Assembly: GCA_002255905.1 (NCBI GenBank)
Contig: NKIN01000002.1
Coordinates: 62,001-126,000 of the forward strand
DNA from: Burkholderiales bacterium PBB1
GTDB lineage: Bacteria > Pseudomonadota > Gammaproteobacteria > Burkholderiales > Burkholderiaceae_C
Direction of reading: 5' to 3'
Length of the DNA: 64,000 bases
The notes below the pieces were generated by a model. That model made no database searches. It was given only the letters and a program-made list of their open reading frames with translations, and was not told where the DNA came from. Each line of letters begins with the position of its first letter. The stretch's first letter is position 1. The position numbers and the translations under genes were made by a program. This document shows, piece after piece, positions 33,671 to 42,725 of the stretch.

Positions 33671-35518
33671 TCACAGTCCCACCGCCTTCAGCGATGCGAT
33701 GAATCCCTGCGCCGGCACAAAGCCGATCACGCGGGCGTCGGCCTGCTCTCGGCCTTGCTTGTCGAAGAACAGCACGCCGGGCGGGCCGAACAGGCCGAAG
33801 CGCTTGAGCAGTGCCTTGTCCTCGGCCGAGTTGTCGGTGACGTCGGCCTGCAGCAACAGGGCATGGGCCATCCGTGGCTGCACGGCGGGATCGCTGAAGG
33901 TCAGGTGTTCCATCTCCTTGCACGACACGCACCAGTCCGCGTAGAAGTCGAGCATCACCGGCCGGTCGGCCGTCTTCAGCGCGGCATCCAGCTCTGCGAC
34001 GTTTCGGATGCGACGAAAGCTGCTGGCTGGCGTCTCTGCCTTGGCCACGCCTGGTCCGCGTGCGAAGTGACCCAGCGGTTGCAGCGGGTTGTCGCCGCCC
34101 GAGAGCGCCCCGACCACCTGGGTCGAACCCAGCACGGCCAGCAACAGCGCCACACCTTTGCCCAGTCGCTGGTGACCCGAGGCCGTGTCGGCGAGCCGTT
34201 CGAACAGCCTCAGGTAGATCGCCCCGACCAGCAAGCCGCTGCCGATGATCAGCATCACCACCCACACAGGAAGCACCGGCGACACGATCCACAGCGCCAC
34301 GGCCAGCAGCATCACGCCAAAGAACGTCTTGACGCCTTCCATCCAGACGCCGGCACGCGGCAGCAGCGAGCCTGCCGAGACACCCACCAGCAGCAGGGGC
34401 ACGCTCATGCCCATGGCCAGGCTGAACAGTGCCAGACCGCCGATGACGACGTCGCGCGTCTGGCTGATGAACACCAGCGCGCCGGCCAGCGGCGCGGCCA
34501 CACAGGGGCCAACGATCAGCGCCGACAGCCCACCCATCACGAACACGCCGAAAAAATTGCCCCCGGGCAGGCGGCTGGAGCTTTCGGTGATGCGGCTCTG
34601 GATGAAGCTGGGCATCTGCAACTCGAACACGCCGAACATCGACAGCGACAGCGTCGCGAGCATCAATGCAAATGCGCCGAGCACCCACGGGTTTTGCAGC
34701 GCTGCAGCGAGCCCTTCTCCCAGCAGGCCGGCCACGACGCCGAACACGGTGTAGACCAGTGCCATGCCGAGCGAATAGGACAGGGCCATCGCAAAGCCCG
34801 TCAAGCGCGACACCGGTGCGCCCTGGCCCACGATGATCGACGACAGGATGGGCACCATCGGCAGCACGCACGGCGTGAACGCCAGCAGCAGCCCCGCCAG
34901 CAGGAACACGCCGGCGATGGTGATCAAGCTGCCTGACTTGAGCGCCGATTCGACCTTCGCGCTTTGCGATGGCGAGGCCACGGCAGCCGAAGCGAGCGCT
35001 GGCGCTGGCTCCGATGCCGCCGCCGGCGCTGCGTTGTCGCCCAGCCACTGCGCACGCACCAGTTGTCCGTCGCTGGAAGTCACCGCCACGAAGGCGGTCT
35101 GCGGCGGGTAGCACAACCCCTTGTCGGCGCAGCCCTGGTAGACCACGCGCAGTCGGGCATCGGCTTTCGTCGCCTGGACTGGCACATCGATGCGCAGCGT
35201 GCCCTGCAGCACCTCGACATCTTTCTGGAAATTCGTGTCGAACTCGATCTTGCCGGCTGGGATTGATACCTCGCCCAGCGTGGCACCGGTGCCCTGCGGC
35301 TCGACGCTGATGCGCTCACGGTAGAGGTGGTAGTCCGGTGCGATGTCGATGCGCAACTCGACAGTCCGGGCGTTGCTGACGCGCGCGCTGCCCACGAAGG
35401 CCAGCTCCGGATCCAGGAAGTCAGGTTCGCTGGCGACGGCGAGCGCGCCCCAGCTCACTGCAGCGAGCGCGACCAGGCCGTTCACACCCAGGCGCTTGGC
35501 CCATCTTGAAATCGTCAT
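33671..35518 (-). CDS. dsbD: Thiol:disulfide interchange protein DsbD
   Basis: A 615-residue inner-membrane protein with all three redox parts of DsbD. After a signal peptide, the periplasmic N-domain has the cysteine pair in YQGCADKGLCYPP; the eight-helix core has paired cysteines in AFTPCVLPMVP and IVGPCVAAPLAG; the C-terminal thioredoxin domain has YADWCVSCKEME. It carries electrons from cytoplasmic thioredoxin to periplasmic partners. The ATG overlaps the apbE stop, so here DsbD is the last gene of the unusual redox operon and probably supplies its TlpA protein. Confidence 0.95.
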   Translation of the reverse strand: MTISRWAKRLGVNGLVALAAVSWGALAVASEPDFLDPELAFVGSARVSNARTVELRIDIAPDYHLYRERISVEPQGTGATLGEVSIPAGKIEFDTNFQKDVEVLQGTLRIDVPVQATKADARLRVVYQGCADKGLCYPPQTAFVAVTSSDGQLVRAQWLGDNAAPAAASEPAPALASAAVASPSQSAKVESALKSGSLITIAGVFLLAGLLLAFTPCVLPMVPILSSIIVGQGAPVSRLTGFAMALSYSLGMALVYTVFGVVAGLLGEGLAAALQNPWVLGAFALMLATLSLSMFGVFELQMPSFIQSRITESSSRLPGGNFFGVFVMGGLSALIVGPCVAAPLAGALVFISQTRDVVIGGLALFSLAMGMSVPLLLVGVSAGSLLPRAGVWMEGVKTFFGVMLLAVALWIVSPVLPVWVVMLIIGSGLLVGAIYLRLFERLADTASGHQRLGKGVALLLAVLGSTQVVGALSGGDNPLQPLGHFARGPGVAKAETPASSFRRIRNVAELDAALKTADRPVMLDFYADWCVSCKEMEHLTFSDPAVQPRMAHALLLQADVTDNSAEDKALLKRFGLFGPPGVLFFDKQGREQADARVIGFVPAQGFIASLKAVGL

Positions 35519-36495
35519 TTTTTAACTCCGTGAGTGATGCGCAGATCGTGTTCGGCACCGATGCGTGTGCTGCGCATCGAGGTGTCGACGACGAGGCCCG
35601 TGGTGGCCTGTGCAGCGAGAAAGTCGAGCGCCGAAGCGCCCTTGAGCATGGCGATCGTGCTGAGCGCGCCAGCCGCCACGCAGGCGGGTGCTGTCACGCT
35701 GACACTGGACCAGTGGGTCACTGGCCAGCCGGTGCGAGGATCGAGGATGTGGCAATAGCGGCGCCCGTCCTGCTCGAAGTAGCGTTCGTAGTCACCGCTG
35801 GTGGCCAGCGCCCCCTCGCGCAGTTCGACGCTGGCGATCGTGCCCTCATCCTGCCGTGGATGCTGGACGCCGAAGCGCCAGGCACTGCCGTCTGCGCGCG
35901 GCCCGAGCACCCGGATGTCGCCGCCCAGGTTGACGTAGCCATGGCGCTGGCCGGCAGCGTGCAATGCCGACATGGCGCGGTCGGCGGCGTACTCCTTGCC
36001 GAAGCCACCGAAATCGACCTCCATGCCTGCACGCGGAAGGCGGATTGACCGCCCCGTCCATTCCACCTGCGACCAGCCGATCAGCGGCAGCAGCTGACGC
36101 AATGCCTCGTCGGTCGGAACGCGCCTGGCCTTGAAGTCCCAGGCGCGGCGCAACACGCCGGAGGTGATGTCGAACAGCCCGTCGCTGAGCGTGTGCAGCT
36201 GTGCCGCAAAGCTCAGCAGCGAGGCGGTCTCGTCGTCGACGGGCACGCTGTCGGGTCCGCCAGCTGCTGCATTGATGCGAGACACGATGCTGTCGGCGCG
36301 ATAGCGCGAATACGCCACCTCGATGCGCCGCACCTCGTTGATGGCCTGGCCGGCCGCCAGCGCCAATGCAGCTTCTCCTTCGCCGTGTGCGTCGTCGAGA
36401 CAGATCTCGCAGACGCTGGACATCGCGTCGAACTCGAAGCGATAGGCGGATGTCTTCGCAGGCACCCCCTCAACACGATGTCGCTGCTTGCCCAT
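35515..36495 (-). CDS. apbE: FAD:protein FMN transferase (ApbE family)
   Basis: A 326-residue flavin transferase that cuts FAD and attaches FMN to a threonine of target proteins. Visible motifs are FDAMSSVCEI, VDFGGFGKEYAADRAM, YVNLGGDIRVLG and HILDPRTGWPV. Two oddities: no signal peptide or lipobox, although most ApbE proteins are exported; and the conserved ADALST metal motif reads AAGALST (35656-35676), losing the aspartate. Both may mark a subfamily tied to DUF3570. It lies three bases after the DUF3570 gene and overlaps dsbD. Confidence 0.9.
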   Translation of the reverse strand: MGKQRHRVEGVPAKTSAYRFEFDAMSSVCEICLDDAHGEGEAALALAAGQAINEVRRIEVAYSRYRADSIVSRINAAAGGPDSVPVDDETASLLSFAAQLHTLSDGLFDITSGVLRRAWDFKARRVPTDEALRQLLPLIGWSQVEWTGRSIRLPRAGMEVDFGGFGKEYAADRAMSALHAAGQRHGYVNLGGDIRVLGPRADGSAWRFGVQHPRQDEGTIASVELREGALATSGDYERYFEQDGRRYCHILDPRTGWPVTHWSSVSVTAPACVAAGALSTIAMLKGASALDFLAAQATTGLVVDTSMRSTRIGAEHDLRITHGVKK

Positions 36496-36498
36496 GAA

Positions 36499-37689
36499 TC
36501 AGAAGCGTGTGCTGATGCCGATCTGGACGAACGTCGCCCGAAACGGATCCAGCCCTGGCGACCCCCGGCCGATGCGCCAGCCGGCACGCTGCTCGTAGCG
36601 TTCGACCTTGGCGTCGACCGTCCAGTTCTGTGTCACCTTGAACGCCGCCTTCAGGCCCACGGTGACGGCGCCAAAGGCAGACAGGCGCTGGTCGGCCGAT
36701 GAGTATCGCGGCGTGTTGGTGAAGTAGCCGGGCGGGTAGGGCGCTCCCACGTCGGTGTCGTAGACCGGGTCGAAGTAGAACTTGGCGTGACTCTGCGTGT
36801 AGTACCGCAGCGACGGCGTCACGGTGAACCGGTCGCCGATCGGTTGCACCCAATCAGCGCCCAGCGTGTGTGCCTTGATGCCGAAGTTGTCGCTGTAGAA
36901 GCGGTAGCTGGCCTTGAGCGTCGCACCCGAGTCATTGAAGTAGTGGTTCCAGCGCGTGAGCAGGATCTTCTGGGCACGGTGGTCGGGGCGTGCGTCCACG
37001 TCCTTGTAGGGGTCGGAGTAGTAGCCGTGGCCCCGGTTGAACGACAGGTTGAGCTGCACCAGATCGTTGGCCGTCACGGCCTGTGTCACCCCGGCGATGA
37101 GTTCGACCGTCTGCTTGGTCTTGCGCAAGGTCGGGTCGTTGGTCGAGCCGATCTTGTCGTCGGCGAATCCCGCGCCCACGTTCCACGTGCGGTTGTTGTC
37201 GTCGCTGGAGAACGTGGCGTCGAACGAGACGGCGTTGCTCTTGTAGTCGTGCTCTTTCGAGTGGCTGTAGCCCAACGAGTAGGTCGATCGATCCTCGTAG
37301 CGCGTGACCTTGACGTCCTGCGCATTGCGCTCGTCTTTCATCCGTTTGGTCGCGCCGGAAATCGACGAGTGATAACGAGGCGTTGCGCCGGAGACGCTGT
37401 CGTTGACCAGGGATCCTTCGACGGACCATTTGGGCGACAGCGGGACCATGACGTAGATCGATGGCGCTTCCACCTTGATGCGTTTGAGCCCTGGCTGTGA
37501 ATCCTGGTAGTGCAGGTACTTCACCGCAATCTCGCCCTGCTCGGGGGCAGAAGCGGCACGGGTGACGCCGGGGGTGATCACACCGGGCAACGCCAGTGCG
37601 GCGGCGATGATCGCCCCTGCCTTTTCGCTGCGGGCGCGTGCCACGCGTTTGCGGTCAGTTGCAGCCACAGCCACCTCCGCCAACGCCAT
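36499..37689 (-). CDS. DUF3570 protein with SGAT flavinylation-like motifs
   Basis: A 396-residue protein, probably an outer-membrane beta-barrel: an N-terminal signal-like segment (AIIAAALALPGVI) then many alternating aromatic strands ending in VQIGISTRF with a terminal phenylalanine. It carries two SGAT motifs, DSVSGAT (residues 97-103) and SSISGAT (108-114); D-x-x-S-G-A-T is the FMN attachment site in NqrB/NqrC/RnfG. With apbE next door, covalent FMN on T103 or T114 is a strong inference. A GTG at 37668 behind GGCGGAGG is an alternative start. The gene overlaps the DUF4266 end. Confidence 0.87.
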   Translation of the reverse strand: MALAEVAVAATDRKRVARARSEKAGAIIAAALALPGVITPGVTRAASAPEQGEIAVKYLHYQDSQPGLKRIKVEAPSIYVMVPLSPKWSVEGSLVNDSVSGATPRYHSSISGATKRMKDERNAQDVKVTRYEDRSTYSLGYSHSKEHDYKSNAVSFDATFSSDDNNRTWNVGAGFADDKIGSTNDPTLRKTKQTVELIAGVTQAVTANDLVQLNLSFNRGHGYYSDPYKDVDARPDHRAQKILLTRWNHYFNDSGATLKASYRFYSDNFGIKAHTLGADWVQPIGDRFTVTPSLRYYTQSHAKFYFDPVYDTDVGAPYPPGYFTNTPRYSSADQRLSAFGAVTVGLKAAFKVTQNWTVDAKVERYEQRAGWRIGRGSPGLDPFRATFVQIGISTRF

Positions 37690-37891
37690 AGCCGCCCGAG
37701 GCGTTTTCCTTGCTGCCGTAGATGTGTTGAACGAAGCGCTGATCGAGCGGGTCGCCGCCCATGGTCATCTCCGGGCGCGCCAGGTTGCCACGCTCCCAGG
37801 CCTGCGGGGGTGCATAGGCGCAGCCGCCAAGGCTGGCGAGCGCGAGCAGCGCGCCGATGGCACGCAGCGAACGTTGGTGTAAGTGGGACAT
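37655..37891 (-). CDS. DUF4266 lipoprotein
   Basis: A 78-residue lipoprotein: signal and lipobox (LALASLGGCAYAPP), a conserved core PPQAWERGNLARPEM and QRFVQHIYGSKENASGG, and a glycine tail ending GGGGCGCN. The CxC at the extreme C-terminus could hold a disulfide or metal. The ATG at 37891 follows a strong GAGGAGG site; an in-frame ATG at 37930 overlaps the TlpA stop. DUF4266 genes commonly sit beside DUF3570 and apbE, but the role is unknown. Confidence 0.87.
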   Translation of the reverse strand: MSHLHQRSLRAIGALLALASLGGCAYAPPQAWERGNLARPEMTMGGDPLDQRFVQHIYGSKENASGGYGVGGGGCGCN

Positions 37892-37926: not shown

Positions 37927-38436
37927 TCATGGCGTGCCGAGAACCTTGGCGATGCGCGACTCGAGCTCGGCGCGGTCCTGCTCGTGGAAGCCCTTGTGCG
38001 ACGACGCAATCTTTCCGTCGCGACCGACCAGGTAGGACGACGGCATGCCCTTGACCTCGTAGCGTCTGGCGCTGTCGCCATTCGCATCGAAGGCCACCGT
38101 GAATTGCGCCGGTACCTCGGCGAGGAACTTGTCGGCGTCGCCGCGCTTGGCATCGAGGTTCACCGCCACGACCTCGAAGCCTTTCGCGCCGTACTTGGCC
38201 TTGAGGTCGTTCATGAACGGAAACGACTGCTTGCACGGGCCGCACCACGAAGCCCAGAAGTCCACGTAGACGACCTTGCCCTTGAGCTGCGCGAGCGACA
38301 CCGCTTCCTTGAGTCCCGGTAGGTTCAACTCGGGCGCGGGCACGCCTGCCTCGAGCGACCAGGCGACTGGAGTCGCCAGGGTGGCCAGACACAGTGTGGT
38401 GAGGCGAAGGGCGTGGGAAAGCGATCTGTGCTTCAT
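37927..38436 (-). CDS. TlpA-like periplasmic thioredoxin
   Basis: A 169-residue exported thioredoxin-fold protein. The signal peptide ends near PVAWS; the active site is FWASWCGPCKQSFP; the cis-proline loop is KGMPSSYLV. TlpA/ResA-type proteins reduce apocytochrome or other periplasmic disulfides and take electrons from DsbD or CcdA. Here dsbD is in the same operon, and its likely client, the cytochrome-like protein, is the next gene upstream. Confidence 0.92.
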   Translation of the reverse strand: MKHRSLSHALRLTTLCLATLATPVAWSLEAGVPAPELNLPGLKEAVSLAQLKGKVVYVDFWASWCGPCKQSFPFMNDLKAKYGAKGFEVVAVNLDAKRGDADKFLAEVPAQFTVAFDANGDSARRYEVKGMPSSYLVGRDGKIASSHKGFHEQDRAELESRIAKVLGTP

Positions 38437-38498: not shown

Positions 38499-41400
38499 TC
38501 AGCGTCGGCGGGCGCGGCGCAGCCACAGCACGCCAGCCGCGCCCAGCGTGAGCAGCCACAGCACCGGGTCCAGGGGCGACTCGCCGCGTGCGATCGAGCA
38601 GCCGCCGGAGCTGCCGCCACTCGGGGCCGGGGGCGTGATCGCGGCTGCTCGTACCGCTTGAATGGACACCTGTGCCGGCGTGGACGATGCGTTGGTGGTG
38701 ATCTCGACCATGCCGGCCTCGGTGCCGTCGGCACTGCTGGACCAGCCGATCGACATGGCGCAGCTCTGGCCTGGCAACAGATCAAAGGGCAGGGCGCTGC
38801 AGCCGTTGCTGAGTGCCGGGTCGAGCGTGAACGAGCCCGATGCGATCTGCATCCCGGTGACCGTCAGCACCGCATTGCCTGTGTTCTGAATTGACAGTGG
38901 TTGCGGCGAGGCCGCCTCGCCGGGGATGGCGCTGAAGTTCAGTGTCGAGGCTGACAGCGTTGCGACGGGCGCCGCCGGGGCGGTGGCCGTGCCGGTGAGG
39001 GTCAGCGTCGGCGGATTGGTGCCGGTCGATGTGACCTGCAGCGTTGCATTGCGCGAACCTGCGGCACCCGGATTGAATGCCAGCGTCAGGAAGCAGCTGG
39101 CCCCTTGAGTGAGCGAGCCGTTCACCGCGCAGGTCCCGCCGCTGACGGCATAGTCGGCCGCGTGGCCACCGGCCAGGGTGAAGCCGGACAGCGTCACCGC
39201 ACCCGGGCCCTGGTTGAGCAGGGTCACGGTCTGGGTGGTGGCCGGGTCGCCCACGGTCAGGCTGCCGAACGACACCGTGCTGGTGGTCGGGTTCCAGGCC
39301 AGCACGGGAGACGCCACCACGCCGGTTCCGCTGAGGCCCACGCTGTGCGGCGATCCGGCGGCATTCGAGGTCAAGCTGACGCTTCCGGACGCCGCCCCCA
39401 GGGCCGTCGGGGAAAACGTCACCGACACGGTGCAGCTGGCGGCCGCCGCCAGACTGGCGCCGCAGGTGGTGCCGCTGATCGCAAAGGGGGCTGAAGCCGT
39501 GATGCTGGAGATGGTCAGCGCGGCGGTGCCGGCGTTGGTCAAGGTGACATTGCGCGCCGTGGAGGTCGTACTCTGCGTCTGGTTGCCGAACGCCAGCGAG
39601 GCTGGGGCGAGTGCGGCTGCGGGCGCAGGAGCCGCCGTGGCCGTGCCGCTCAGGGTGACGGCCGCATTTCCGTTGCTGGCGTTGGAGGCGATCGTCAGCG
39701 TGGCGCTGCGTGTGCCAGTGGCCGTCGGTGCGAAGGCGATGGTGACCGTGCAGGTGCTTGCGGCTGCCAGCGGGGTGCTGGTTGCGCAGGTGCCGCCGCG
39801 AGTGAAGTCGCCTGCAGCAGTGCCGGTGAGCGTGAATCCGGTGAAGCCGAGCGGCGCGGAGCCGCTGTTGGTGACGGTCACCGTCTGGGCCGCGCTGGTC
39901 GTTCCAACGGTCTGCGAGGTAAAGGTCTTGGTGGTTGCGTTCAGCGAAATGGTGGGTTGGGGCGCGGCGGTCCCGGTGCCGTTCAGCGTCACCGTCGAAG
40001 GCGACCCCGTGGCGTTGTGTGCAATGGACAGGTTTGCGTTGCGCGCACCGATGGCCGTCGGCGCGAACGCCAGCCTGACCGTGCACGAGCCCGACACCGC
40101 GACACTGCCGCCTGCGGTACAGGTGCCGCCGGACGAAATCCGGTAGTCGGATGCCTGTGTTCCGCCCAGCGTCAGTGCGCTGATGGCGAGCGGTGCCGTC
40201 CCGGTGTTGCTGACGGTCACCGTCTGGTCCGCTGACGTGGTGTTGACCGTCTGGCTGAACGTGAGTGTGGTGGGCGACACGCCGATCACGGGAGTCAGCG
40301 CCACGCCGGTGCCCGACAGGCTGGTGGTGCTTTGTCCGCCCGTGGCGTTGTGGGTGATGACGAGGTTGGCGCTGCGCGCACCGGCCACTGAAGGCGTGAA
40401 GCCCACGCTGACGGTGCAGCTGGCGCCGGCGGCGATCGAAGCGCCATTGGCGCAGGAGCCGCCACTCAAGATGGAGAACTCGGTGCCACTGCTGATCGAC
40501 ATCGTCCCCAGCACCAATGCCGCGTTGCCGGTGTTCGTCAGTGTGGCCGTCTGCGGTGTCCCTGCGGAACCGACGTTCTGGCTTCCGAACGCCAGCGACG
40601 CGGTCTGCGATGCCACGGGTGCGGGTGCTGCCGTGGCGGCACCGGTGAGGGACACGCTGCCCGGGCTGCCTGCTGCGTTGTGGGTGATGCCGAGCGTGCC
40701 GGTGCGGGTGCCGGTGGTGGCTGGCTTGAAGGCCACCGAGATGGTGCAGTTCGCGCCGGCCGCCACGCTACCGCCCGCCGCGCAGGTGCCGCCGCTGATG
40801 ATGTAGTCGGCCGTGTTCGACAGGGTGAGGGCCGACAGCGTGAGGGCCGCCGTTCCCGTGTTGCTGACCGTGACGCTTTGCGACGCGCTGGTGTTGCCGA
40901 CGGCGGTGGAGGCCAGCGTGAGCGAGGTCGGCGAGATGCTGGCGACCGGGGCGGGCGCCGCTGCCCCGGCACCCGTTCCCGACAGCGCGATGACCACCGG
41001 TGTCAGCGTGTTGTTGTGCGAGATGTTCAGCGTGCCGGTGCGGGTGCCCGAGGCCGTGGGCGTGAAATTGACCAGGATCGTGCAGCTCAGTCCGGTGCCG
41101 ACGGTGGTGGCGCAGGTGCCACCGGCGCGCGCGAAGTCACCGCTGGTCGTCACCGACAACCCACTCAGCGAATAGCCGGTCTTGAGGCTGGCATAGACGG
41201 TGACTTGTTGCGTGGCCGAGCTGCTGCCGACATTGGTCGACGGGTAGGTCAGCGTCGTCGGCGTGTTGCCGAGGTAGGCCGCCACATCGGCGACCTGCTG
41301 CGCGGTCATGCCGCTCAGCCGGCCCATGCCGCTGTTGTTGCTGTTGATGTTGCTCTGGATCCACGCACGGGCATTGCGGGCGTTGTAGATCTTGGACGCG

Positions 41401-41588
41401 TTGCTGGTGAGCGGCGTGGTCGTGTTGTGACAGCCCGATCCCGTGCAATTCGCGCTGTACAGCGTGGCCCCCGTCACCGGCGAGTCAGCCCAGGCGGTCA
41501 GCGACAGGAGGCTCAGTGCGGCTGCAGCCAGCCATCGGTTCACGGTGTTTGAAATCATGGCGGGGTTGGGGTTGTGAGCGTGTTTCAT
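38499..41588 (-). CDS. Cytochrome c-like / choice-of-anchor D surface protein with C-terminal sorting tail
   Basis: A 1029-residue exported protein. After a signal peptide (about 1-34) a cytochrome c-like domain follows (35-107): LYSANC then a C-x4-C-H heme-type motif (C48, C53, H54), a possible axial methionine M88 and AQQVADVAAYLG. Residues about 108-970 are eight Ig-like choice-of-anchor D modules of about 105 residues, each ending S/N-G-T-G or similar. The tail is a Gly/Ser linker, cysteine 997, a hydrophobic helix (1007-1023) and RRARRR, as in Cys-type CTERM sorting signals such as JDVT-CTERM. The processing protease is probably the upstream gene. Confidence 0.85.
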   Translation of the reverse strand: MKHAHNPNPAMISNTVNRWLAAAALSLLSLTAWADSPVTGATLYSANCTGSGCHNTTTPLTSNASKIYNARNARAWIQSNINSNNSGMGRLSGMTAQQVADVAAYLGNTPTTLTYPSTNVGSSSATQQVTVYASLKTGYSLSGLSVTTSGDFARAGGTCATTVGTGLSCTILVNFTPTASGTRTGTLNISHNNTLTPVVIALSGTGAGAAAPAPVASISPTSLTLASTAVGNTSASQSVTVSNTGTAALTLSALTLSNTADYIISGGTCAAGGSVAAGANCTISVAFKPATTGTRTGTLGITHNAAGSPGSVSLTGAATAAPAPVASQTASLAFGSQNVGSAGTPQTATLTNTGNAALVLGTMSISSGTEFSILSGGSCANGASIAAGASCTVSVGFTPSVAGARSANLVITHNATGGQSTTSLSGTGVALTPVIGVSPTTLTFSQTVNTTSADQTVTVSNTGTAPLAISALTLGGTQASDYRISSGGTCTAGGSVAVSGSCTVRLAFAPTAIGARNANLSIAHNATGSPSTVTLNGTGTAAPQPTISLNATTKTFTSQTVGTTSAAQTVTVTNSGSAPLGFTGFTLTGTAAGDFTRGGTCATSTPLAAASTCTVTIAFAPTATGTRSATLTIASNASNGNAAVTLSGTATAAPAPAAALAPASLAFGNQTQSTTSTARNVTLTNAGTAALTISSITASAPFAISGTTCGASLAAAASCTVSVTFSPTALGAASGSVSLTSNAAGSPHSVGLSGTGVVASPVLAWNPTTSTVSFGSLTVGDPATTQTVTLLNQGPGAVTLSGFTLAGGHAADYAVSGGTCAVNGSLTQGASCFLTLAFNPGAAGSRNATLQVTSTGTNPPTLTLTGTATAPAAPVATLSASTLNFSAIPGEAASPQPLSIQNTGNAVLTVTGMQIASGSFTLDPALSNGCSALPFDLLPGQSCAMSIGWSSSADGTEAGMVEITTNASSTPAQVSIQAVRAAAITPPAPSGGSSGGCSIARGESPLDPVLWLLTLGAAGVLWLRRARRR

Positions 41589-41593
41589 CGGGA

Positions 41594-42064
41594 TCAGGGC
41601 GCAAGACCGGGCACCATCAGCCAGGCGGTGTTGAAGGCAGCGTGCAGTGCGACGGCAGGCGCCAGGCGACGCGACCGCTGGTAGATGGCACCGATCGCCA
41701 GCGCCGGCAGCAACGTGAGCAGCGACTGCGGGGTGCCTCGACTCAGGCCATGGGCCGCTGCGAATGCCAGTGCCGTGAAGGCATTGGCCATGGGGGCCGA
41801 GCGCAAGCGGGTCAGGAGTTCCTGATGCAAGCCGAGCCGGAAGATCACTTCTTCGACCACCGGCGCGCCGGCAATCAACCAGATGACCGAACCCGCGGGC
41901 ATGACCGGTGCACGCGGGCCGAGCATCACGACCAGCAGGCCCAGCCCTGCGCACAGCCAGAACAGGCCATCGGTGGGCTCGGGGCCTGCCCGACGTGCTC
42001 TTGCGACAGTGCACTCGCCTTTCGGCTGAAAGACTGTGTTGACGGTGTGGGCAATCAAATGCAT
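41594..42064 (-). CDS. mrtJ: CPBP glutamic intramembrane protease (JDVT-CTERM type)
   Basis: A 156-residue membrane protease of the CPBP (Abi/CAAX) family. All catalytic motifs are present: the glutamate pair in PVVEEVIFR, the histidine in ALAFAAAHGL and HAAFNTAWL. It is shorter than typical CPBP proteins and opens DGLFWLC, as I recall for the small proteases dedicated to JDVT-CTERM tails; the symbol mrtJ rests on that recollection. Its stop is five bases before the start of a protein bearing such a tail, so enzyme and substrate appear to be encoded together. Confidence 0.8.
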   Translation of the reverse strand: MHLIAHTVNTVFQPKGECTVARARRAGPEPTDGLFWLCAGLGLLVVMLGPRAPVMPAGSVIWLIAGAPVVEEVIFRLGLHQELLTRLRSAPMANAFTALAFAAAHGLSRGTPQSLLTLLPALAIGAIYQRSRRLAPAVALHAAFNTAWLMVPGLAP

Positions 42065-42074
42065 GGCGGCATGG

Positions 42075-42095
42075 TAAATGTGCAAAGTGCACATT
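42075..42095. promoter_or_regulatory. Perfect 21-bp inverted repeat, probable operator
   Basis: The repeat is AAATGTGCA-AAG-TGCACATTT, two perfect 9-bp arms and a 3-bp spacer. It lies 11 bp upstream of the protease start in an AT-rich patch within GC-rich surroundings. It is the right size for a dimeric repressor or activator of the redox operon. On the plus strand the following T-rich run could make it a weak terminator instead. Confidence 0.5.
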
Positions 42096-42129
42096 TTTCT
42101 TAAAATTGCGCCGAGTTGTAACTCCGCCA

Positions 42130-42725
42130 CGTGTCTCGGGTGTCTGGGCCCGGTGATCTGTCCTCCCGAACAGGCGCTGGACGGGCTGAGCGCGCGTTGC
42201 TGTCAACCCACGCGCTCGCACAATCGGCGTGTCAGGCCTCCGCGCCGTGGGCGCGCGTGTCCGCCGGTTCGAGCGCGGCGACATCGCCAGCGTGGGCTGC
42301 ATCGTCGACAGCTGCCTGCGCTGCAGTGCCTGCGGCGACGGGCTCGAGCCGTACTGCGACAACGGCTTCAGGCACCTACAACGGTCCTGTCTTCGGTGGC
42401 GAAAAAACCTTTGGCGGCTACTCCACCCGCATCGTGGTGAAACAGCAGTTCGTGCTCAGGATCAGCCACACGGACAACCTGGCCGCCGTGGCGCCGCTGC
42501 TGTGCGCCGGGATCCGCTGCGCCAAGGGGACGTGCAGAAGGGTCAGAAGGTAGGCGTCGGCGGTCTGGGCCACATCGGGGTCAAGATCGCTGCGGCGGTG
42601 GCCGCGCACCAGACTCGTTCGACTTCATTCTCAACACCGTCGCGGCTTCAAGCGCCGCCGGCTGGGCGGATCGCTGATCGGGGGCATCCGCGAAACCCAG
42701 AAGATGCTCGACTTCTGCGCCGTGA
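42130..42725 (+). pseudogene. Degraded zinc alcohol dehydrogenase (YahK/AdhC-like)
   Basis: Pieces of a zinc-dependent NAD(P) alcohol dehydrogenase appear in order but in different frames: ERGDIASVGCIVDSCLRCSA followed by GLEPYCDNGF (structural-zinc cysteines), then TYNG, FGGYSTRIVVKQQFVLRI, VAPLLCAGI, KVGVGGLGHIGVKIA (cofactor fold) and GGSLIGGIRETQKMLDFCA (C-terminus, 42664-42723). Large segments between them are missing. It is a clear non-functional remnant, decayed by deletions and frameshifts. It fills the gap between the redox operon and the YdcF-like gene. Confidence 0.82.

Follow-up and report, generated by a model that had tools for sequence, protein, structure and literature searches.

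Which protein is modified by the FAD:protein FMN transferase ApbE when its gene directly follows that of a DUF3570 protein, and where in the cell would the flavin be attached and finally reside? This question is raised by an operon in a stretch of 64,000 nucleotides from Burkholderiales bacterium PBB1, called the window below. Transcription runs on the minus strand from a choice-of-anchor D gene through the thioredoxin, DUF4266, DUF3570 and apbE genes to dsbD (Table 1), and the cluster thus holds the full DsbD-type flavinylation set of DsbD, a thioredoxin-like protein, DUF4266, DUF3570 and ApbE. The open reading frames of DUF4266 and DUF3570 overlap by 35 bases and those of apbE and dsbD by 4 bases. 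The ATG of apbE, at 36495, lies 3 bases after the DUF3570 stop, as the original prediction had it. The DUF3570 frame stays open across the stop codon of DUF4266 in 132 of 136 loci (in the window at 37655–37689, minus strand), so the DUF3570 start may be inside DUF4266 and translation of the two genes may be coupled. The conserved K, D, G, S and H core columns of ApbE are present in the aligned window protein. Among the profile matches listed, PF13899 appears only for the C-terminus of DsbD, and the separate thioredoxin matches Redoxin and AhpC-TSA.

Table 1. Genes of the operon and candidate flavin attachment sites, with the profile matches or sequence on which each assignment rests
Feature	Position	Strand	Evidence
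Choice-of-anchor D protein, JDVT-CTERM sorting tail	38499-41591	-	NF012200 485 bits; NF033191 36.3 bits (cutoff 27); start uncertain
TlpA/ResA-like thioredoxin, WCGPC	37927-38436	-	Redoxin 88.5 bits; AhpC-TSA 75.3 bits
DUF4266, small, lipoprotein-like, C-terminal GGGGCGCN	37655-37891	-	PF14086 76 bits
DUF3570, 396 aa from listed ATG	36499-37689	-	PF12094 217 bits (cutoff 25)
Flavinylation motif 1 of DUF3570, DSVSGAT, residues 97-103, acceptor T103	37381-37401	-	Sequence
Flavinylation motif 2 of DUF3570, SSISGAT, residues 108-114, acceptor T114	37348-37368	-	Sequence
apbE, FAD:protein FMN transferase	35515-36495	-	PF02424 264 bits (cutoff 25.6)
DsbD, transmembrane thiol reductase	33671-35518	-	NF001419 580 bits (cutoff 330)

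Upstream of the operon, a MrtJ-like CPBP protease (41594–42130, minus strand; 73.4 bits, narrowly missing the cutoff of 75) lies immediately before the JDVT-CTERM protein, its likely substrate. The two are probably a sorting pair that adjoins the flavin operon. The choice-of-anchor D protein also has a C-x4-CH motif near its N-terminus.

The window DUF3570 has two [ST]GA[ST] motifs, a trait of the DUF3570 ApbE substrates described by Meheust et al. in 2021 (eLife; PMC8238504). Both motifs had been placed correctly by the original prediction, and their acceptor threonines are 11 residues apart. In 20,000 shuffles of the protein, D..[ST]GA[ST] arose in 0.56% and two [ST]GA[ST] motifs within 15 residues in 0.015%. 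A third SGAT (residues 254–257) has no Asp at the right place; the same sequence recurs in none of the compared loci, a few of which have unrelated extras. In the accessible part of the 2021 paper, two conserved [S/T]GA[S/T] motifs are reported for ApbE-associated DUF3570 proteins, and the Chlorobium luteolum homologue is flavinylated by its cognate ApbE, with modification abolished only when both sites are changed. These experiments, together with the conservation described below, support the proposal that ApbE attaches FMN to DUF3570 at two sites, and the window protein very probably carries covalent FMN. The further claim of a new flavinylated class was wrong, since the class has been in print since that paper.

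To place the window among its relatives, PF12094 was searched in two genome samples that share some genomes; the phylum sample (398 genomes) gave matches in 29 and the family sample (399 genomes) in at least 85. From the matches listed, each gene taken once and G727 (E 6e-4) excluded, 137 loci from 108 other genomes were fetched together with both flanks of about 5 kb, shorter where a contig ended, and adding the window gives 138 loci; a scan of close relatives (9 loci) was kept out of the counts. Alignment A1 comprises 98 of the 137 fetched loci and the window, and alignment A2 52 loci, including 7 ordinary members. A locus was scored as having apbE when the gene fell anywhere in these flanks, whether or not it was the next gene; in 4 of the 68 such loci it is more than 800 bases from DUF3570.

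All 68 of these loci have Gly in motif 1, and in 63 the motif is exactly [ST]GA[ST] (SGAS 30, SGAT 22, TGAS 11, SGGT 3, TGSS 1, GGAS 1). Among the 70 loci without apbE in reach, 51 have SNAS, 5 SSAS and 1 TAAS, and 13 keep a Gly motif, three of them (L099, L101, L102) in the sister operon described below. The expectation that the motif occurs only beside apbE thus held within 5 kb, where none of the 57 Gly-less loci has the gene. It failed farther out: whole-genome searches found an apbE on the same strand 5.9–11.8 kb upstream (measured between profile matches, not gene ends) in 45 of the 57, and ten Gly-motif loci outside the sister operon have no apbE in the flank, some of them ending at a contig end. 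Fewer than half of the Gly-motif loci outside the sister operon (37 of 78) carry motif 2, and double flavinylation is therefore not general.

Sequence search returned no solved structure for the window DUF3570 up to E 1. The AlphaFold2 model, built from 99 aligned sequences, is a 16-strand barrel (pLDDT 87.1, pTM 0.85), and the 50 solved structures among the Foldseek matches listed are outer-membrane proteins, including OmpG, FadL, BcsC, PelB and CymA. The C-terminal residue is Phe, and an h-region was found in 78 of 81 Gly-motif relatives. Judged from this model, DUF3570 is almost certainly an outer-membrane beta-barrel. Residues 102–116, with T103 and T114, form the predicted loop between strands 3 and 4. 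The loops on this side are 2, 15, 2, 9, 14, 4, 39 and 14 residues long, and the turns on the opposite side 3–5; long loops on one side and short turns on the other are the usual pattern of outer-membrane barrels. In known barrels both chain ends are periplasmic. If this also applies to DUF3570, the strand 3–4 loop lies on the cell-surface side, a probable orientation with which the loop lengths agree. The loop is the part of the barrel predicted with the lowest confidence (block means 73 and 70).

The position of ApbE relative to the inner membrane was approached through its leader. The open frame before the ApbE core, from an M, V or L start and limited to the last 60 residues, was examined for an h-region with a home-made hydrophobicity rule (threshold 1.6), not with SignalP. 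The 108 aligned ApbEs comprised 68 encoded at most 5 kb from DUF3570, 19 taken from sister operons and 21 others. By this rule an h-region is present in none of the 68 DUF3570-linked ApbEs, 7 of the 19 and 12 of the 21, and in 52 of 57 Gly-less DUF3570s alongside the Gly-motif proteins counted above. In 32 of the 68 linked ApbEs the open frame before the core is at most 30 residues long. In the window it begins 26 residues before the core and holds no hydrophobic segment and no recognisable lipobox or signal peptide. The 68 proteins, including that of the window, form one group in the ApbE tree (support 97), the 19 sister-operon ApbEs form another (support 99), and the 21 others do not form one group. 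Since the ApbE and DUF3570 trees come from a quick search with SH-aLRT support only and a midpoint root, a group here means the set of proteins to one side of a branch, which need not be a clade. A leaderless ApbE with an exported barrel as substrate suggests flavinylation before export, which on these sequences appears slightly favoured. We know of no precedent for an FMN-bearing chain passing SecYEG.

The 57 Gly-less loci, which depart from the D..[ST]GA[ST] consensus, belong almost entirely to a separate branch. In a DUF3570 tree calculated with the motif columns omitted, 59 proteins stand apart with support 100, namely the 56 SNAS or SSAS proteins and the Gly-keeping L099, L101 and L102; the sole TAAS protein, L089, falls with the rest. 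Related sequences count many times in the tallies of this branch. An initial view that the SNAS branch is without apbE had rested on the 5-kb flanks and was overturned by the whole-genome searches, in which 107 of 108 genomes gave an ApbE match. Among the Gly-less loci without an apbE at the distance given above, the one in G186 has its closest on-contig copy 100 kb off. The other 11 have none on the contig; in 10 of these the contig, judged by its length, stops too early, and the exception is the genome of L089. In two genomes (G509: L113, L128, L147, L161; G668: L115, L123, L144, L187), there are four DUF3570 paralogues each, three with Gly and one with SNAS, so both branches can coexist in one genome.

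In 15 of 20 sister operons fetched, the gene order is apbE, a hydrazine-synthase-alpha-like gene, a stretch of 1.0–1.3 kb with an unnamed HGGG-type gene, an SH3/barrel protein, a small barrel, thioredoxin, DUF4266, DUF3570, C9 (an unnamed family whose listed open frames span 169–245 aa) and TPR proteins; in L226 one of the TPR genes went undetected. The haem-like proteins encoded nearby are not the same in the two branches: the hydrazine-synthase-alpha-like protein has two CxxCH motifs in the four sister loci examined, compared with C-x4-CH in the choice-of-anchor D protein of the window. Sister operons from other families of the class (L213–L216, L229) have further genes on the opposite strand, whose products are a laminin-G-like protein with two CxxCH motifs, another protein with one, and a third of 545 aa that matches no family.

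The variant motif itself is well conserved. In alignment A2 (D-x-V-S-N-A-S), D and A never vary, and each of V, S and the acceptor S reaches at least 90%; motif 2 reads xTAS, with Thr replacing Gly, in 50 of 60. A six-frame scan of the whole span of the 20 operons found D..[ST]GA[ST] on the operon strand only in the DUF3570 of the Gly-keeping L213, L214 and L216, and nowhere on that strand in the 17 Gly-less operons; the other match was an antisense frame of 90 codons in L221. The idea that particular ApbE residues track Gly versus Asn was rejected: residues specific to one class do exist, but those that are fully fixed also occur in Gly-keeping members of the group and so follow descent. The SNAS motif lies at the end of the third long strand and in the next loop of the barrel-like L182 model (52 sequences; pLDDT 89.5, block mean there 53). 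The simplest reading of these sequences is that the sister motif is a variant still served by a dedicated ApbE.

The partner lipoprotein may have changed along with the barrel. DUF4266 is lipoprotein-like by its LGGC sequence and ends in a CxC tail in 136 of 138 loci. Of the 59 tails that accompany a Gly-less or sister DUF3570, 57 have Arg as the residue 14 from the end; the exceptions are L176, with Gln, and L089, which falls outside the branch, with Ala. In the 77 other tails this residue is never Arg and is Ser in 57, relatives being counted repeatedly in both tallies. The glycine-rich tail of DUF4266 might extend into the barrel.

These observations can be combined into a mechanism. ApbE would load FMN onto T103 and T114 of DUF3570, presumably in the cytosol, while the chain is still unfolded and has yet to undergo Sec export and delivery to the outer-membrane assembly machinery. 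The mature barrel would then bear two FMNs in the strand 3–4 loop, which would either lie on the cell-surface side or fold into the lumen. Electrons might pass from DsbD to the periplasmic thioredoxin, the CxC tail of DUF4266 and the FMNs, and would leave the latter for an acceptor located at the outer membrane or beyond it. This order of electron transfer is an even call; within about 5 kb of DUF3570, members of the main DsbD sequence cluster turned up at 19 of the 138 loci, a count that leaves more divergent DsbDs out. The explanation as a whole, with an ApbE-loaded barrel, loading before export, flavins at the surface and a thiol-to-flavin electron path, seems to us fairly probable. The fullest version is unlikely to hold in every part. 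It joins the surface flavin on a barrel, cytosolic loading by a leaderless ApbE and the thiol-to-flavin path with a glycine-less branch whose D-x-V-S-N-A-S and T-T-A-S motifs are still recognised by their own ApbE group, with the Ser-to-Arg change in DUF4266, and with a barrel, lipoprotein and thioredoxin acting as a path through the outer membrane.

Several other explanations have to be weighed. That the SGAT motifs are chance matches finds some encouragement in the third SGAT without Asp in the same protein, but it is practically negligible given the motif conservation, the rarity among shuffles and the mutagenesis of the C. luteolum homologue (PMC8238504). The same substrate could receive the same two FMNs in the periplasm, between Sec and outer-membrane insertion, if ApbE is exported without a classical signal or if its true start lies upstream; we regard these two variants together as clearly less likely than not. 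Most ApbEs seem to be secreted, typically as lipoproteins, according to the part of a review consulted (PMC12052999), a strong hydrophobic segment is present in 8 of 8 non-DUF3570 ApbEs from other families of the class (L230–L237), and signal-peptide truncation is mentioned for the C. luteolum work in the accessible methods of PMC8238504, where truncated constructs are described for a DUF2271 protein with its ApbE, and a similar strategy for C. luteolum. The last point means that a leaderless ApbE may not hold outside the sampled genomes. Within them, the short frames without a hydrophobic segment in nearly half of the linked ApbEs, and the late opening of the window frame, argue for cytosolic loading.

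A different objection concerns the purpose of the flavin, which might be structural or local, for example holding the barrel–lipoprotein complex together, with DUF3570 no electron conduit. In the sister branch the motif glycines change while the barrel and its partners persist, and a canonical flavin may therefore be dispensable for the core function. The redox thiol partners (thioredoxin and CxC tail) are nevertheless kept in nearly all loci, and we consider a merely structural or local role unlikely. Loss of flavinylation at the sister SNAS site, with the sister-operon ApbE modifying a target encoded elsewhere, has somewhat less than an even chance in our judgement. The published motif has Gly, and a G-to-A change in a fumarate reductase lowered flavinylation to about 50%, according to the part of a review consulted. 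Against a dead site stand the conserved D, A, V, S and S of alignment A2, the single group formed by the 19 ApbEs, the near-fixed distance of apbE in most Gly-less loci and the restriction of canonical motifs on the operon strand to Gly-keeping DUF3570s. The Gly position also varies in DUF2271, where flavinylation is itself putative: six such proteins in ApbE loci have Gly in 2, Ser in 3 and Ala in 1.

The genome of the window has no FMN_bind match, and its sole other ApbE match adjoins DUF2271 (L001, 38–475 and 1360–2445, contig C15), with the motif DGVTSAT and Ser in place of Gly. The relatives of the window protein make several ideas testable: that a covalent flavin is carried on a protein before Sec export, that a flavin reaches the cell surface on a beta-barrel, and how far ApbE recognition strays from D-x-x-[ST]-G-A-[ST]. 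The sister branch would escape searches that require Gly or an apbE no more than five genes away, the latter because its apbE is about seven genes from DUF3570.

Among known electron conduits, MtrCAB-like porin–cytochrome systems also lead electrons through an outer-membrane barrel, possibly as DUF3570 does. They use multi-haem cytochromes, whereas the conduit predicted here would use FMN and thiols. Some cytosolic ApbEs are noted in the part of the review consulted (PMC12052999), among them one of Klebsiella pneumoniae that, like the window ApbE, has no recognisable signal peptide; its substrate is a soluble cytosolic fumarate reductase, whereas that in the window is a predicted exported barrel. 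The DUF2271/PepSY systems in the available text of PMC8238504 likewise have a non-FMN_bind substrate with its own ApbE, but belong to another family with other partners, and the motif Gly is Ser or Ala in 4 of the 6 DUF2271 proteins that we examined.

In the open-licence full texts searched, DUF3570 and DUF4266 were each found only in Meheust et al. (PMC8238504). In the text available, the words barrel and porin are absent and outer membrane occurs once, for siderophore transporters; the barrel fold, a leaderless ApbE in the DUF3570 system and the SNAS branch are not mentioned. Term searches of a 2024 paper (PMC11334425), and one of its sections, did not show DUF3570 named. The parts of the open-licence literature covered gave no description of the leaderless ApbE, the surface-side loop or the glycine-less sister branch, and no open-licence paper was found that combines hydrazine synthase alpha, thioredoxin, outer membrane and operon. 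The accessible text of the 2021 paper describes clusters of DsbD with DUF3570, thioredoxin, DUF4266 and ApbE, and proposes electron flow from DsbD. The window has the same components, including the CxC end of DUF4266 and the two-motif DUF3570. It differs in its Redoxin/AhpC-TSA type of thioredoxin, in place of the PF13899 type found in 183 of those clusters but not all, and in the JDVT-CTERM choice-of-anchor D protein that precedes the operon. The window locus is one more member of this published system, and the original prediction was sound in its reasoning and already known in kind.
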